Positions 9,422 to 50,057 of a stretch of 64,000 nt of DNA are shown piece after piece; the first letter of the stretch is position 1, and the number at the start of each line of letters is the position of its first letter. Location of the stretch: NCBI RefSeq assembly GCF_019049855.1, contig NZ_JAHLSY010000004.1, positions 62,001-126,000 on the forward strand, given 5' to 3'. Source of the DNA: Hydrogenophilus thiooxidans. GTDB taxonomy: Bacteria > Pseudomonadota > Gammaproteobacteria > Burkholderiales > Rhodocyclaceae. Both the position numbers and the translations under genes were made by a program. Below the pieces are notes generated by a model, which worked only from the letters and a program-made list of their open reading frames with translations, was not told the DNA's origin and made no database searches.

Positions 9422-9967
9422 TTATTGCTGGGGCTTTTCGGACTGACCGATCCCTGCCATTTTTTGCCACATTTCTGTGGTCATCCGTGTGGCTTCTTGC
9501 ATCGCTTCGAGCGTCTTGCTGGGGTCGGGCCAGAGCGTCTGGCCAATCTGTGTATTACCCCACGGAAAGGGCGGGACAACACCTTTCTGTTCTGCACTTC
9601 CCTGCTGCCACCACCGCTGCCAGAGTGCGCCGCTCGTTTCGAGTGTCCGGGTAAGAAACTGATTCATCTCCGCTTGGCTCTTCACGGTGAGCTGCGCCAC
9701 TTCGTTCATCGCCGCGATCACCTGTTGGGTGACGCGCTGCGCGAACGCTTGTTGCTGCTGCTGTTGCGCCGAAGGGTCACTGGTATCCGCGAGCGCTTGC
9801 GACGCGCGGATACTCTCCTCGAAAAGCGTCCGCGCCAACTCGTTTTGCAACGCGACGAGCCGCTGCGTCTGCGCCATCGCGCTTTGCGTCAGCGCAAGCC
9901 ATTCGTTCATCATCGCTGCCCACGGTTCGTCCGTCGGGCTGGGCTTCGTGGTGGTTTTCTTGCTCAT
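9422..9967 (-). CDS. Phasin-family protein
   Basis: A 181-residue, helical, glutamine-rich protein with no signal peptide. It resembles phasins, which coat polyhydroxyalkanoate granules: amphipathic helices (AQTQRLVALQNELARTL, AQRVTQQVIAAMNEVAQL), a run of six glutamines, and a Trp-rich stretch (ALWQRWWQQ). The ATG at 9967 is chosen because GGGAGGG lies 5-6 bases upstream; an in-frame ATG further up would place that site inside the gene. The PHA synthase at 48.3 kb provides the matching pathway. Family call is from composition and pattern. Confidence 0.7.
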   Translation of the reverse strand: MSKKTTTKPSPTDEPWAAMMNEWLALTQSAMAQTQRLVALQNELARTLFEESIRASQALADTSDPSAQQQQQQAFAQRVTQQVIAAMNEVAQLTVKSQAEMNQFLTRTLETSGALWQRWWQQGSAEQKGVVPPFPWGNTQIGQTLWPDPSKTLEAMQEATRMTTEMWQKMAGIGQSEKPQQ

Positions 9968-17416: not shown

Positions 17417-17459
17417 GAGCAAATACTCCCAACGTTAGCCATTCCCCCGTGGCTAAGGT

Positions 17460-17675
17460 GGTGGAACCCATTCGCGGCCGGTCTCCGGGCTCGGGCTATT
17501 TTCCACACCGCCTTCCCAGTCAGCCCACCCGATTCGAGCAGCGCTGCCAGTGGCGTGATGGTGCGGACAAAACCCCTACCGTTGCGGGGGCAGCAGCAGC
17601 TTTGCACCGGGGAGTCGGTGCGCACTGCTTTCCCGTTTCACCGCATCGACCAGAGGGGCGGATGCGGCACCGCGA
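17460..17675 (-). promoter_or_regulatory. Cobalamin riboswitch before btuBCD
   Basis: Read on the minus strand, this leader holds the diagnostic AdoCbl elements in order: GGTGAAACGGGAA, then GCTGCCCCCGCAACGGTA, then CACTGG, GGGAAGGCG and the B12 box GCCCGAGCCCGGAGACCGG. Bound cobalamin would fold the RNA so that the btuB ribosome site (GGGAG at 17426-17430) is hidden or transcription stops. No clear U-tract terminator is visible before btuB, so translational control is more likely. The gap from btuB to the next gene (about 290 bases) is mostly this element. Confidence 0.95.
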
Positions 17676-17708
17676 ACACGAATGAAATGCAGTAGCGAAG
17701 TATACGAT

Positions 17709-25607: not shown

Positions 25608-26027
25608 TCACGTTTCGTCGATGATCTCCCACGTGTGCTCGATCTGCGCGGTCTTGCCGAGCATGATCGACGCGGAGCAATATTTTTCCGCGGAGAGTTC
25701 AACGGCACGCTTGACTTTGTTGGGGTCGAGGTTACGCCCCTTCACCAGGTAGTGGAATCGGATTCGGGTAAAGACTTTGGGGTCCTTCTCTGCGCGCTCC
25801 GCGGAGAGCGTGACCGTGCAGCCGGTCACCGGTTGCCGTCCTTTTTCCAGAATGGCGACGACGTCGAATGCCGTGCATCCCCCGGCACCAGCAAGCAGCA
25901 GCTCCATGGGCCGCGGGGCCAAGTTGCGCCCACCAGCCTCTGGCGCCCCGTCCATCACGACCGTGTGTCCCGAGCCGGTCTCTGCGAGAAACGTCTTTGC
26001 CGTTACCCAACGAACCGTACATTCCAT
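25608..26027 (-). CDS. OsmC-family protein
   Basis: A 139-residue OsmC/Ohr-fold protein of the YhfA type. These dimers carry two cysteines that reduce organic hydroperoxides. The first cysteine is in LLAGAGGCTAFDVV and the second in SAEKYCSASIML, both in the expected places. RPMELLLAG matches the family signature. The start follows AGGAGAAAAGC. It converges on rppH. Peroxidase activity is inferred from the cysteines only. Confidence 0.87.
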   Translation of the reverse strand: MECTVRWVTAKTFLAETGSGHTVVMDGAPEAGGRNLAPRPMELLLAGAGGCTAFDVVAILEKGRQPVTGCTVTLSAERAEKDPKVFTRIRFHYLVKGRNLDPNKVKRAVELSAEKYCSASIMLGKTAQIEHTWEIIDET

Positions 26028-26130
26028 GCTTTTCTCCTCTTTGATCCATGCTGCCGATTGTAACCAACGTGCTACCCGTCGCGTCTGCGATCGGGAATAA
26101 GCGATAGCTAATGATCAATAAAAATTATTA

Positions 26131-26145
26131 TTGTGCAACGCACAA
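26131..26145. promoter_or_regulatory. Inverted repeat just upstream of the sRNA promoter
   Basis: TTGTGC-AAC-GCACAA, a perfect 6-bp inverted repeat with a 3-base centre, ending 7 bases before the -35 hexamer of the predicted small RNA. It lies in a very AT-rich block (about 26108-26152). It could be an operator; the regulator is unknown. Confidence 0.5.
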
Positions 26146-26152
26146 AAAAAGC

Positions 26153-26181
26153 TTGCATTCTGGCCCGCGGTTCAGTATAGT
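26153..26181 (+). promoter_or_regulatory. Sigma-70 promoter of candidate sRNA
   Basis: TTGCAT (26153-26158), exactly 17 bases, then TATAGT (26176-26181). The AT-rich stretch upstream could act as an UP element. No protein gene follows before the terminator about 80 bases later. Confidence 0.75.
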
Positions 26182-26187
26182 AACGCC

Positions 26188-26291
26188 TGAGCGCAACGGA
26201 AACGGTTTTTCCGGTGTGCATGGGTGTCTCCTCCACCTCCTCCTTTGGTGTGGATTGTGCGCCGCCACATTCAAGTGGCGGCGTTTTTTTT
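26188..26291 (+). ncRNA. Candidate small RNA with anti-Shine-Dalgarno motifs
   Basis: A predicted transcript of about 100 bases between osmC and the LTXXQ gene, with a near-consensus promoter and its own terminator. It has a 5' hairpin (26191-26202 with 26208-26219, one mismatch and a G-T pair), then a C-rich stretch at 26228-26243 that reads CTCC four times, then a 9-bp terminator hairpin (26260-26268 with 26275-26283) and eight T residues. The CTCC motifs are complementary to GGAG ribosome-binding sites, the mark of some trans-acting sRNAs. No convincing ORF lies here. The rest of the roughly 390-base gap holds only an upstream AT-rich block and the next gene's terminator. Function is inference. 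Confidence 0.7.
26260..26291 (+). terminator. Rho-independent terminator of candidate sRNA
   Basis: CGCCGCCAC (26260-26268), loop ATTCAA, GTGGCGGCG (26275-26283), then T x8 (26284-26291). A perfect 9-bp GC-rich stem. Confidence 0.93.
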
Positions 26292-26345
26292 GCATAAAAC
26301 GGGTGTGGGGCGCAATGGCGCGCACGGTGATCCATGCGCGTGGTC

Positions 26346-26379
26346 GAAAAAAACCCGCTTACCCAGTGGGCAAGCGGGT
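26346..26379 (-). terminator. Rho-independent terminator of the LTXXQ gene
   Basis: On the minus strand ACCCGCTTGCCC (26379-26368) pairs with GGGTAAGCGGGT (26364-26353), loop of three bases and one G-T pair, followed by a T run (26352-26346). It lies about 40 bases after the end of the minus-strand gene and faces the sRNA terminator. Confidence 0.92.
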
Positions 26380-26420
26380 CGAACGGGGGGGGGAGAAGTC
26401 CCTAGGAAGGGTGAAAAAGC

Positions 26421-26948
26421 TTACCGGTGCTTCGGTTTGCGGTGTTCGCCCCGTTTCGGCATGAACTCCTGGTCGAAAATGCGTTTTTGCGCATCTGTGA
26501 GCTGATCGTAGAACGATTCGACGATCTGGCGCTCTTTGCGCGCATCTTCGATCATCTCTTGGAGCATCGTTTCGCGCAGTTTCAAGCGCTCCAGTACCTT
26601 ATCTGTCTCCTGGAACGCATCTTGTTTCGCACGATGCGCTTCGAACCGTTTTTCGTGCAGCGCTTGCCATTCGTTGCGAAACGCTTGCCAAGCCGGTTTC
26701 TGCGCCTCGGTGAGTTGCAGGAGAACCTCCAGGCGGTCGAGTTTTGCCGCTTGCCGTTCCGCCATCTGCTCTTTCCACGCTTCGGGGTCGGCAGGCATGC
26801 GCGGCCCCATCTCTTTGGGCGCCATCATGCCGGGACCATGAGGCATTTCGTCCATCGGGGAACGTGCCCAGCTGGTCATTGCGGTGGCGACAAGGCCAGA
26901 AACCAGAAGGGATGTCAGAGTCGTACGTGCGATTTGCTTGCGTGCCAT
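26421..26948 (-). CDS. Periplasmic LTXXQ-motif protein (Spy/CpxP-like)
   Basis: A 175-residue protein with an N-terminal signal sequence (SLLVSGLVATAMTSWA). The mature part is Met/Pro-rich at first, then long charged helices with two LTxxQ-type motifs: LLQLTEAQKPAW and FYDQLTDAQKRIF, the hallmark of Spy/CpxP proteins. Those are periplasmic chaperones or stress sensors under Cpx/Bae-type control. Start ATG follows AGGAGA. It is divergent from a response regulator gene, and a CpxR-like box lies between them, so it probably belongs to that system's regulon. Confidence 0.85.
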   Translation of the reverse strand: MARKQIARTTLTSLLVSGLVATAMTSWARSPMDEMPHGPGMMAPKEMGPRMPADPEAWKEQMAERQAAKLDRLEVLLQLTEAQKPAWQAFRNEWQALHEKRFEAHRAKQDAFQETDKVLERLKLRETMLQEMIEDARKERQIVESFYDQLTDAQKRIFDQEFMPKRGEHRKPKHR

Positions 26949-38317: not shown

Positions 38318-38332
38318 GTGGTACGATGTGAC

Positions 38333-38349
38333 GTTGACGTTAACGTAAC
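38333..38349. promoter_or_regulatory. ACGTTAACGT palindrome before the SDR gene
   Basis: A perfect 10-bp palindrome ACGTTAACGT (38337-38346) within GTTGACGTTAACGTAAC, directly before the ribosome site of the dehydrogenase gene. It resembles operators of MerR-family LiuR-type regulators of branched-chain acyl-CoA catabolism, as I recall the motif; no such regulator is seen here. Confidence 0.45.
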
Positions 38350-38362
38350 AAAGGAGGAGCCG

Positions 38363-39130
38363 ATGTTGATTTCGGATCGCGTTTTCGTGATCACCGGTGC
38401 CGCGTCGGGTTTGGGCGCAGCAACGGCACAAGCAGCGGTGGCGCACGGTGCCAAAGTGGTGTTGCTCGATCGCGATGCGGAAAAGGGTTCGGCGGTCGCA
38501 GAGCAACTGGGTGCCGCTGCGCGGTTTTGCTCGTGTGACGTTACCGACGAAGCTTCGGTGCGGGAGGCGCTCGAGGCGGGGGTGACGGTGTTTGGACGCA
38601 TCGATGTCTTGGTGAACTGCGCCGGGGTGGCGCCGGCGGAAAAATTGGTGGGTCGCGAAGGGCCGCACGCCCTCGCTTCGTTCGAACGTACGATCGCGAT
38701 CAACCTCACCGGCACCTTCAACACGATGCGGCTTGCGGCGGCGCGGATGATCGGCAACGCGCCCAACGAGCACGGCGAACGTGGGGTAATCATCAATACC
38801 GCGTCGATCGCAGCGTTCGAAGGGCAGATCGGTCAAATTGCGTATGCCGCGTCGAAAGGGGGGATCGTCGCGATGGCGCTCCCTGCAGCACGGGAGTTGG
38901 CGCGCTACGGGGTGCGGGTGATGACCATTGCGCCCGGGATCATGGAGACCCCAATGCTCCTGGGGATGCCGCAAGAGGTGCAACAGTCGCTGCACGCGAT
39001 GGTTCCTTTCCCGCAGCGCATGGGCAAACCGGCCGAATATGCCGCACTGGTGCTGCACATCGTGAGCAACCCGTATCTCAACGGTGCGACCATTCGCCTC
39101 GACGGCGCAATCCGGATGGGCGCGAAGTAA
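38363..39130 (+). CDS. Short-chain dehydrogenase, 3-hydroxyacyl-CoA dehydrogenase type 2-like
   Basis: A 255-residue classical SDR. NAD motif VFVITGAASGLGAA, VLVNCAGVAP, catalytic Ser in IINTASIAAFEG and YxxxK as YAASKGG. The sequence IGQIAYAASKGGIVAMALPAA and APGIMETPML resemble bacterial and mitochondrial HSD17B10-type 3-hydroxyacyl-CoA dehydrogenases, which act in fatty-acid or isoleucine breakdown. ATG at 38363 follows AAGGAGGAG. A possible LiuR-like operator precedes it. Substrate is inferred from similarity only. Confidence 0.83.
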   Translation: MLISDRVFVITGAASGLGAATAQAAVAHGAKVVLLDRDAEKGSAVAEQLGAAARFCSCDVTDEASVREALEAGVTVFGRIDVLVNCAGVAPAEKLVGREGPHALASFERTIAINLTGTFNTMRLAAARMIGNAPNEHGERGVIINTASIAAFEGQIGQIAYAASKGGIVAMALPAARELARYGVRVMTIAPGIMETPMLLGMPQEVQQSLHAMVPFPQRMGKPAEYAALVLHIVSNPYLNGATIRLDGAIRMGAK

Positions 39131-48344: not shown

Positions 48345-50057
48345 GTGAAAATGCTCCAGTCGACGCCAGAAAAGATGGCCGAGGTGCTTCACCAGATGGC
48401 GGAGGAGAGTTGGGATCCGATCGGAATGAGCGCGCCGCTTTTGCATGCGCTCTTTGCGTGGGGTGCGCACCCACTCGAAGCGAGCGCGTTATGGTGGCGC
48501 GCTGCCGAAGATGGTGCGCGCTGGCAGCAGTTCGTATGGCAGCGTGCGCTGGGCGAAACGAATTCGCCCGTACCGTTTCCGCCGGTGGCCGATGACGCCC
48601 GCTGGGATCATCCGGCGTGGCAGGTTCATCCATTCTGGGCCGGTTGGCAGCAAGCCTATTTGGGTGCGACGCGTCTCATTCAGGATGCACTCTACGCCAC
48701 GCCTGGACTGAGCGAAAAGGAGCGCCGCCGTGCGGCGTTCTGGCATCGCACCTTTGCCAACGCGCTGGCGCCGACGAACTTTTTCTGGAGCAACCCAGAG
48801 GCGCAACGCCGCGCATTGGCAAGTGGCGGCGCATCGCTGTGGCAGGGGGTGAAGAACTTCTGGGCCGATCTCGCCGCGGGACAGGTGCGGATGTCCCGTA
48901 CCGACGATTTCCGTGTCGGCGAGAATCTGGCGACCACCCCGGGGCAGGTGGTGGCTCGCACCGCGTTGGTCGAGGTGATCCGCTACCATCCGACAACGCC
49001 CAACCAATACGCGCGGCCGATCGTGATCGTCCCGCCGTGGATCAACAAGTTTTACATCCTCGATTTGACGCCGGAAAAAAGCCTGGTGCGCTTTTTGCGC
49101 GATGCGGGTTTCGACCTCTTCATCATCAGTTGGCGAAACCCCACTGCCGAAATGGCGGCAACCACTTTCGAGGATTATTTGCGCTTGGGGATCGATTTTG
49201 CGGTGGAGACGGCGCGGACCTTGAGTGGCAGCGATAAGGTTCAGGCGGTCGGTTATTGCCTGGGGGGAACGGCGCTGGCCAGTTACGCGGCCGCAAAAGG
49301 GGTAGAGCCGGGAAGCGAAACGCCCCTTGCCAGCGTGACGTTCTTCACGACACTGGTTGATTTTTCCGCACCAGGGGATATCGAGGTGTTCGTCGATCCC
49401 GGAACCGTGCGCTATCTGTGCCACAAGATGCGGCTTACGGGGTATCTCGACGGGGCGGAGATGGCGGCTGCGTTTCGGTTGTTGCGCGCCAATTCCCTGA
49501 TTTGGTATTACGTTGTGCATGGGTGGCTCTATGGCGAAGAGCCGCAGCCATTTGACGTGCTCTATTGGAACATGGATACCACACGGATGCCCGCCGCGAT
49601 GCACTGCTGGTATCTGCGCGAACTCTACCTGAAGAATCGCCTGATTCAGCCCGGTGCTTTGCAGTTGATGGGGCAGCCGATCGACCTACGGGCGATCACC
49701 GTACCGGTCTATGCCGTGGGTGCGGAAGACGATCACATCGCGCCGTGGCGACAGACTTATCAGTTACTCAAACACGTGCGTGGCCCCAAACGGTACGTCT
49801 TGTCGAATTCGGGGCATATCCTCGGTATCGTGAACCCGCCCAAGGATCCGCCCAAGCGCCATTACCGGGCGAGCGACTTCGCTTCGCTCGTGCCAAAGGC
49901 CGAGGAGTGGTTTGCGGCGACCGACCCCCAGCCCAACAGTTGGTGGCCCGACTGGGTGGATTGGTTACGGCGCGAAGCTGGGGCGACGAAAGCGGCATCG
50001 ACTCCGGAAAAGTGGCCCAATCTGGGCGCAGCGCCAGGGCGGTACGTCCATGAGTGA
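48345..50057 (+). CDS. phaC: Class I poly(3-hydroxyalkanoate) synthase
   Basis: A 570-residue synthase that polymerises hydroxyacyl-CoA. The lipase-like box is GYCLGGTALA with the catalytic Cys near residue 306; the catalytic Asp is in VGAEDDHIAPW and His in SNSGHILGIVNPP. N-terminal TNFFWSNPEAQRRAL and PPWINKFYILDLTPEKSL are class I signatures. Start is GTG after AAAGGGGAG; an ATG two codons on is possible. No phaA or phaB lies beside it, but a phasin gene is at 9.4 kb. Confidence 0.93.
   Translation: MKMLQSTPEKMAEVLHQMAEESWDPIGMSAPLLHALFAWGAHPLEASALWWRAAEDGARWQQFVWQRALGETNSPVPFPPVADDARWDHPAWQVHPFWAGWQQAYLGATRLIQDALYATPGLSEKERRRAAFWHRTFANALAPTNFFWSNPEAQRRALASGGASLWQGVKNFWADLAAGQVRMSRTDDFRVGENLATTPGQVVARTALVEVIRYHPTTPNQYARPIVIVPPWINKFYILDLTPEKSLVRFLRDAGFDLFIISWRNPTAEMAATTFEDYLRLGIDFAVETARTLSGSDKVQAVGYCLGGTALASYAAAKGVEPGSETPLASVTFFTTLVDFSAPGDIEVFVDPGTVRYLCHKMRLTGYLDGAEMAAAFRLLRANSLIWYYVVHGWLYGEEPQPFDVLYWNMDTTRMPAAMHCWYLRELYLKNRLIQPGALQLMGQPIDLRAITVPVYAVGAEDDHIAPWRQTYQLLKHVRGPKRYVLSNSGHILGIVNPPKDPPKRHYRASDFASLVPKAEEWFAATDPQPNSWWPDWVDWLRREAGATKAASTPEKWPNLGAAPGRYVHE

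Follow-up and report, generated by a model that had tools for sequence, protein, structure and literature searches.

The closest described relatives of the element studied here are the double-hairpin small RNAs of the Rfam family RF02278, represented in B. cenocepacia by ncS03, ncS05, ncS27 and ncS62. These RNAs (PMC5688073) and S17 of Bordetella pertussis (PMC11722255), relatives of the element, have been shown or proposed to block ribosome-binding sites, and overexpression of ncS27 slows growth (PMC5688073); according to a review, it also affects genes for amino acids and carbohydrates (PMC10987360). RF02278 RNAs are reported to be toxic in E. coli (PMC5688073, PMC4603805), but this toxicity is not universal, since overexpression of the relative S17 left the exponential growth of E. 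coli BL21 unimpaired (PMC11722255). ncS03, ncS05 and ncS27 rise 4.3-8.0-fold in glucose medium and the same double-hairpin RNAs 2.6-3.9-fold in starvation, and the regulator of sRNA accumulation in B. cenocepacia is stated to be unknown (PMC5688073). In Bordetella pertussis, deletion of S17 raises 91 genes by the text of the report and 92 by its abstract, 70 of the raised genes are complementary to the RNA in or close to their ribosome-binding sites, and reporters have confirmed a direct target; the authors postulate that some unnamed factor represses the S17 promoter, and they state that hundreds of species conserve the core of this type of RNA (PMC11722255).

A second line of background concerns polyhydroxybutyrate (PHB). 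PhbF (PhaR) of Herbaspirillum seropedicae represses PHB genes, whose promoters carry an operator with TGC and GCA triplets; the MEME motif TG[N]TGC[N]3GCAA lies inside the footprint, and the regulon members named in the text consulted are all PHB protein genes (PMC3206438). PhaR sites are not settled, since that of Ralstonia eutropha is described as 12-bp repeats unrelated to the repeats of Paracoccus (PMC3206438). A PHB-linked small RNA negatively controlled by AniA (PhaR) is reported from Sinorhizobium meliloti: this RNA, MmgR, resembles the present case by its PHB/PhaR link, and differs in being alphaproteobacterial and in lowering phasin levels (PMC8401924). Riboregulation of PHB synthesis in Cupriavidus necator is called undeciphered in the same source (PMC8401924).

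The window analysed here is a 64,000-nucleotide stretch of Hydrogenophilus thiooxidans DNA. A search with Rfam covariance models identified in it a full-length match to RF02278 (54.7 bits, E 3.1e-8, model positions 1-64 of 64), above the gathering cut-off of 50 bits. The element is therefore a member of RF02278, ordinary as a small RNA and belonging to a family already described (Table 1). Two CTCCTCC within three bases occur nowhere else on either strand of the window, and the RNA folds with z = -3.85 (1 of 200 shuffles was equally good); together with the full-length covariance match, these features argue that the element is not a product of chance.

Every element of the architecture proposed by a first-pass annotation, made from the sequence alone, is present, and the annotation is right in almost all details: the TTGCAT-N17-TATAGT promoter, the 16-base C-rich run with four CUCC motifs, the small TCCAC/GTGGA hairpin and the perfect 9-bp terminator with eight T residues. 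The 5' hairpin, described there as having 12 bp, exists with a close count: two blocks totalling 11 pairs if counting begins at the predicted start (z = -2.17), or 18 pairs when the bases from 26183 are counted in. The compact layout also stands, its elements lying at or next to their proposed places, but mechanical ORFs do overlap the element (e.g. 26111-26464, +), which the annotation had described as having none. Two features had escaped that annotation, namely the membership in RF02278 and a palindrome just upstream of the promoter.

The primary transcript would start about 7 bases after the -10 box, where we placed it by inference, and may be cut as S17 is (PMC11722255). Compared with the B. 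cenocepacia RNAs, the full-length match, the double CU-rich run and the two hairpins with terminator are shared, while the window RNA adds a leader hairpin and comes from a different host lineage, the nearest named match being a Hydrogenophilus MAG. S17 likewise has a CU-rich 5' end in its mature form and a -35 TTGCAT with a 17-base spacer, but its long form measures 190 nt and contains a small ORF (PMC11722255). S17 adjoins coq7 (PMC11722255), and a coq7-OsmC pair adjoins the sRNA in two relatives (L066 and L037); judged by this neighbourhood, the window RNA may be a positional relative of S17.

Table 1. Features of the sRNA locus (positions in the window)
Feature	Position	Strand	Basis or remark
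OsmC-family gene, conserved divergent neighbour	25608-26027	-	Pfam PF02566, E 1.3e-19
Palindrome TTGTGCAACGCACAA (TTGTGC-AAC-GCACAA), candidate PhaR/PhbF operator	26131-26145	.	7 bases before -35
-35 box TTGCAT	26153-26158	+	sequence, script check; identical hexamer, spacing and -10 in L089 (Hydrogenophilus MAG)
-10 box TATAGT	26176-26181	+	17-base spacer from -35; script check
Predicted primary transcript, ~104 nt	26188-26291	+	inferred from promoter and terminator
5' leader hairpin, 5+6 pairs	26191-26219	+	folding; sequence varies among relatives
RF02278 core; with S17-like cutting, probably the mature form (~66 nt)	26225-26290	+	covariance match, PMC11722255
Anti-Shine-Dalgarno run CTCCTCCACCTCCTCC	26228-26243	+	four overlapping CTCC
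Hairpin 1, TCCAC 26232-26236 / GTGGA 26250-26254	26232-26254	+	covariance match, folding
Intrinsic terminator: 9-bp stem 26260-26268 / 26275-26283, eight T 26284-26291	26260-26291	+	

Matches to RF02278 (E <= 1e-3) were found in 39 of the 41 genomes of the family, 29 of them above the cut-off, and in 188 of 300 genomes of the order (114 above the cut-off). A sample of the class gave matches in 83 of 274 genomes, of which three, all within the order, pass the cut-off; the other 80 lie outside the order and have weak matches only. None was obtained in the control genomes (0/14 in each of the family, order and class searches). The RF02278 family thus seems, judging from these weak matches, to extend beyond the order. 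In the class loci outside the order (L006-L032), RF02278-like elements reach up to 48.7 bits, many share the core CTCCTCCATCCTCCTTTGGTGGTTT, and in several a common TTGAC...TATTAGAA promoter precedes sequence resembling AATACTTACATACTGATT. Some single genomes hold RF02278-like elements in tandem, spaced by about 130-155 bases (G263:C3:217943-218301, G145:C83:5201-5393 and G177:C27:1129-1336).

The H. thiooxidans genome itself (2.31 Mb) contains three matches, that is the window element and two below the cut-off, on contigs C45 (43.5 bits) and C10 (33.6 bits). The latter two (L002, C45:105418-105484, -; L003, C10:23593-23658, +) are CU-rich, terminator-ended elements that both occur in the same-genus genome G288 as well, and neither has the palindrome.

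The sRNA loci compared here are the best-scoring 30 of each search rather than a random draw. In an alignment of 37 sequences chosen from 60 loci, the window included, the TGTCTCCTCCACC-CTCCTCC run and GTGGATT are nearly invariant, and the central run is one C shorter in the window and in the Hydrogenophilus MAG (L089) than in most aligned relatives. Stems were counted sequence by sequence, the terminator being out of register in the MAFFT alignment: among 59 loci (L001, L004, L005 and L033-L089 minus L061), 57 have a TCCA...TGG hairpin and 58 have a terminator stem that is perfect over 8-12 pairs, and the 34 distinct inner 7-mers of these stems indicate that their sequence changes with pairing kept. 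The 5' leader is unconserved in sequence but shows a folding tendency: over the 36 loci whose start could be usably estimated, the mean z is -1.42, and 16 fall below -1.5. A 32-base stretch of the core has an exact match in one named record of the scanned collection, that of the MAG, own-genome records being possibly excluded; there, the TTGCAT-17-TATAGT promoter and the near-palindrome TTGTGCAAAGCGCAA are kept despite a different spacer and leader. Conservation, which the first-pass annotation had expected of the promoter, the C-rich run and the terminator, is therefore borne out for the latter two; as to the promoter, position and palindrome are kept in most loci of the order, but the letters of the -35 and -10 boxes vary.

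As for its function, the two CUCCUCC stretches would pair with GGAGG ribosome-binding sites and lower the translation of a set of mRNAs. The first-pass annotation had likewise taken the RNA for a trans-acting translational repressor, a reading that gains support from the published action of its relatives S17 and the double-hairpin RNAs. A rival reading, which we regard as unlikely though the most viable of the alternatives, is that the RNA mimics the 16S anti-Shine-Dalgarno tail and brakes translation in general, without a defined target set. The run CACCUCCUCCUUU does resemble the 3' tail of 16S rRNA. Among 217 called genes in a 284-kb sample of the genome, matches of at least 7 nt to the sRNA occur at 25 start regions versus 9 gene-internal controls, and matches of at least 8 nt at 9 gene starts versus none of the internal controls; the first of these differences, by which start regions pair somewhat better than gene interiors, fits a general brake, as do the toxicity of RF02278 RNAs in E. 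coli and the slower growth under ncS27 overexpression (PMC5688073, PMC4603805). Against it stand the 91 (or 92) genes raised upon S17 deletion and the reporter-confirmed direct target of S17 (PMC11722255).

The palindrome upstream of the promoter links the sRNA to phasin genes. The genome contains four exact TGTGC-N3-GCACA sites: one is at the sRNA promoter, one at the promoter of a phasin gene (PF09361, C13:91477), and two are inside long ORFs. The phasin site (C13:91361) lies ahead of the promoter with the same spacing as at the sRNA, and a second site, TGTTGCACTGCAACA, is found near the start of the phasin gene. A second phasin-like gene is present in the window itself (about 9653-9913, -).

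We built a matrix exclusively from 29 phasin-promoter sites of the family, with no sRNA promoters, by searching for a TGC/GCA core before the TTGA[CT] box in 30 promoters (L122, an incomplete locus, was dropped, and L100 and L131 were unused). With this matrix the window palindrome reaches 22.0 bits and exceeds every one of 1256 control windows (160 bases each, taken from locus flanks), whose 99th percentile (12.1) served as the threshold. This threshold is passed by 51 of the 59 sRNA upstream regions of the order, against a mean of 0.97 and a maximum of 5 of 59 for shuffled upstreams, and a mean of 0.95 and a maximum of 6 for column-permuted matrices. The order loci are mostly not close copies, as they form 56 clusters, 50 of which have the site in their first member. 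Among the eight failing loci is L061, the 3' UTR of a phasin gene. Of the 27 upstreams from outside the order, 2 pass. Two loci of one genus from there (L015 and L020) have, immediately before the sRNA, a TGTTGC-N3-GCAACA that is perfect or nearly so, and a search for PhaR was positive in one of their two genomes. We could not find any genome-wide enrichment of the site in the H. thiooxidans genome (47 places with at most one mismatch versus 52 for the reversed control). The elements on C45 and C10 were considered as further PhaR-controlled copies and rejected, their upstreams scoring 3.6 and -2.3 with the matrix.

The palindrome might instead serve the divergent OsmC gene or another factor, the sRNA, although an RF02278 member, being controlled otherwise. 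OsmC adjoins the sRNA within the examined flank in 46 of 60 loci, always divergently (46/46), and 44 of these 46 have the site, so that one intergenic region is common to both genes. However, the site is also kept in 8 of the 14 loci with no OsmC in the examined flank, including three from multi-copy genomes (L062, L067 and L086), which favours the sRNA as its client. It further holds its position relative to the -35 box of the sRNA in two modes: among 50 loci with a plausible promoter, sought only near the site, it lies 5-8 bases before the -35 box in 25, and the -35 box is inside the site in 23. The identical layout at phasin promoters also speaks against an operator owned by OsmC. We consider this alternative improbable, and the OsmC gene is probably not part of the function of the sRNA.

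Downstream, the gene order coq7 - OsmC - sRNA - rplM is observed in L066 and L037. That the element is a leader or attenuator of rplM-rpsI rather than a free sRNA is very improbable: rplM (PF00572) does follow on the same strand in four relatives (L066, L080, L077 and L037, the four such loci that were scanned), but the window has no rplM just downstream on the same strand and its element is complete although the next gene, for an LTXXQ protein (26421-26948, -), is on the opposite strand, and Northern blots and 5'-RACE have shown relatives to be discrete RNAs (PMC11722255). Elsewhere in the window, a cobalamin riboswitch was identified at 17459-17689 (-, 104.5 bits).

The promoter site shared by the sRNA and phasin genes suggests PhaR/PhbF, a repressor tied to polyhydroxybutyrate granules, as the candidate regulator. 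PhaR is encoded in the H. thiooxidans genome (PF07879, C13:134895-135071, E 9.7e-30). The window site keeps the TGC/GCA triplets and agrees with the phasin promoters of the family, but departs from the published PhbF consensus (PMC3206438) at two of its fixed positions. Leaving out five loci whose genomes lacked a phaR search, the site is present in 50 of 58 loci from genomes with phaR and in 2 of 23 from genomes without it. Within the order these counts are 49/53 and 1/4, and outside it 1/5 and 1/19. Site and phaR hence share a phylogenetic split, and their association is support, not proof, for a PhaR link. Exceptions go both ways: L053 has the site and phaR was not found in its genome, and loci with phaR and no site number 4 of 53 in the order (one being the phasin 3' UTR L061) and 4 of 5 outside. 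The rise of ncS03, ncS05 and ncS27 in glucose medium fits a release by granule formation, whereas their rise in starvation counts against it.

Phasin genes are connected to RF02278 in another way. Among the 75 RF02278 matches of the family, 12, in 10 of the 41 genomes, are located 253-292 bases beyond the end of a phasin domain and in the same orientation, a count made without the 14 lowest-scoring phasin rows; in the 8 of the 12 whose sequence was read, the phasin stop codon is closely followed by the module, and all 12 are below the Rfam cut-off, with at most 46.2 bits. By cmscan at E 1, an RF02278 match follows the gene in 10 of the 30 phasin loci L102-L131 (L102, L105, L109, L111, L114, L115, L117, L120, L122 and L126), and 9 of these 10 contain GTCTCCTCCTCC. 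Phasin mRNA is thus, to judge from these modules, a likely second source of RF02278-like RNAs. As several phasin 3' modules give weak scores with RF02837 (anti-hemB) too, a relationship between the two Rfam families is possible. The 3' UTR of the H. thiooxidans phasin was examined as a module of this kind, and at E 1 neither L099 nor L100 gave a match.

Concerning individual targets, both phaC genes of the 284-kb sample are among the 9 starts with matches of at least 8 nt, a post hoc find. When the best-scoring phaC of each relative genome is taken, 3 of 30 starts reach 7 nt and none reaches 8, but this set holds a different paralogue, corresponding to the third phaC of H. thiooxidans on C12. 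Two sets of 20 phaC genes, one phaR-linked and the other of the third kind, assigned by rank and position without a tree, each have 7 starts reaching 7 nt and 2 reaching 8, one of the two in each set coming from the same-genus genome. For comparison, 7 nt are reached by 13 of 143 ORFs of phasin and phaC loci, a set that includes the phaC and phasin ORFs themselves and has uncertain starts, and by 4 of 29 phasin starts. These counts give at most a weak hint that the sRNA targets PHA synthase. Among candidate targets with strong GGAGGA sites, a dehydrogenase gene of the window (38318-39130) has an 11-nt match to the sRNA. The phaR-linked phaC of genome G308 (L184) has a 10-nt match of its ribosome-binding region AAGGAGGAGGA to the seed of the family sRNA, the longest match found at the 70 phaC starts examined in relatives. 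The window also encodes a PHA synthase (48345-50057, +; PhaC_N, E 3.1e-57), one of three PhaC_N matches in the genome.

We consider it probable, with good confidence, that the window encodes a Hydrogenophilus-type RF02278 sRNA that masks GGAGG sites and is, most likely, repressed by PhaR and released together with phasin. The RF02278 gene would yield a transcript of about 104 nt that is probably processed to about 66 nt; PhaR would repress its promoter through the PhaR/PhbF-type operator; polyhydroxybutyrate granules would draw PhaR off the DNA, so that the sRNA would be released together with the phasin gene; and, during carbon storage, it would dampen uptake and catabolism. With moderate confidence, we lean towards extending this to the Betaproteobacteria, where RF02278 RNAs may form the RNA arm of the PHB granule regulon: granule formation would free Shine-Dalgarno-masking RNAs, from PhaR-repressed sRNA genes and, in part of the family, from phasin 3' UTR modules, that slow carbon uptake and growth.

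In the literature covered, including the accessible text of PMC8401924, PMC9049629, PMC11332829 and PMC10987360 and excluding the 2019 NcS27 paper and most subscription papers, we found no published link between PhaR and RF02278. The PhaR-type control of RF02278 promoters is apparently the new part, the kind of sRNA and its Shine-Dalgarno masking being already published. If true, the PhaR operator and the phasin 3' modules would tie the question of how RF02278 RNAs are controlled to that of PHB riboregulation, and the shared promoter site suggests an answer to what switches the RF02278 family on.
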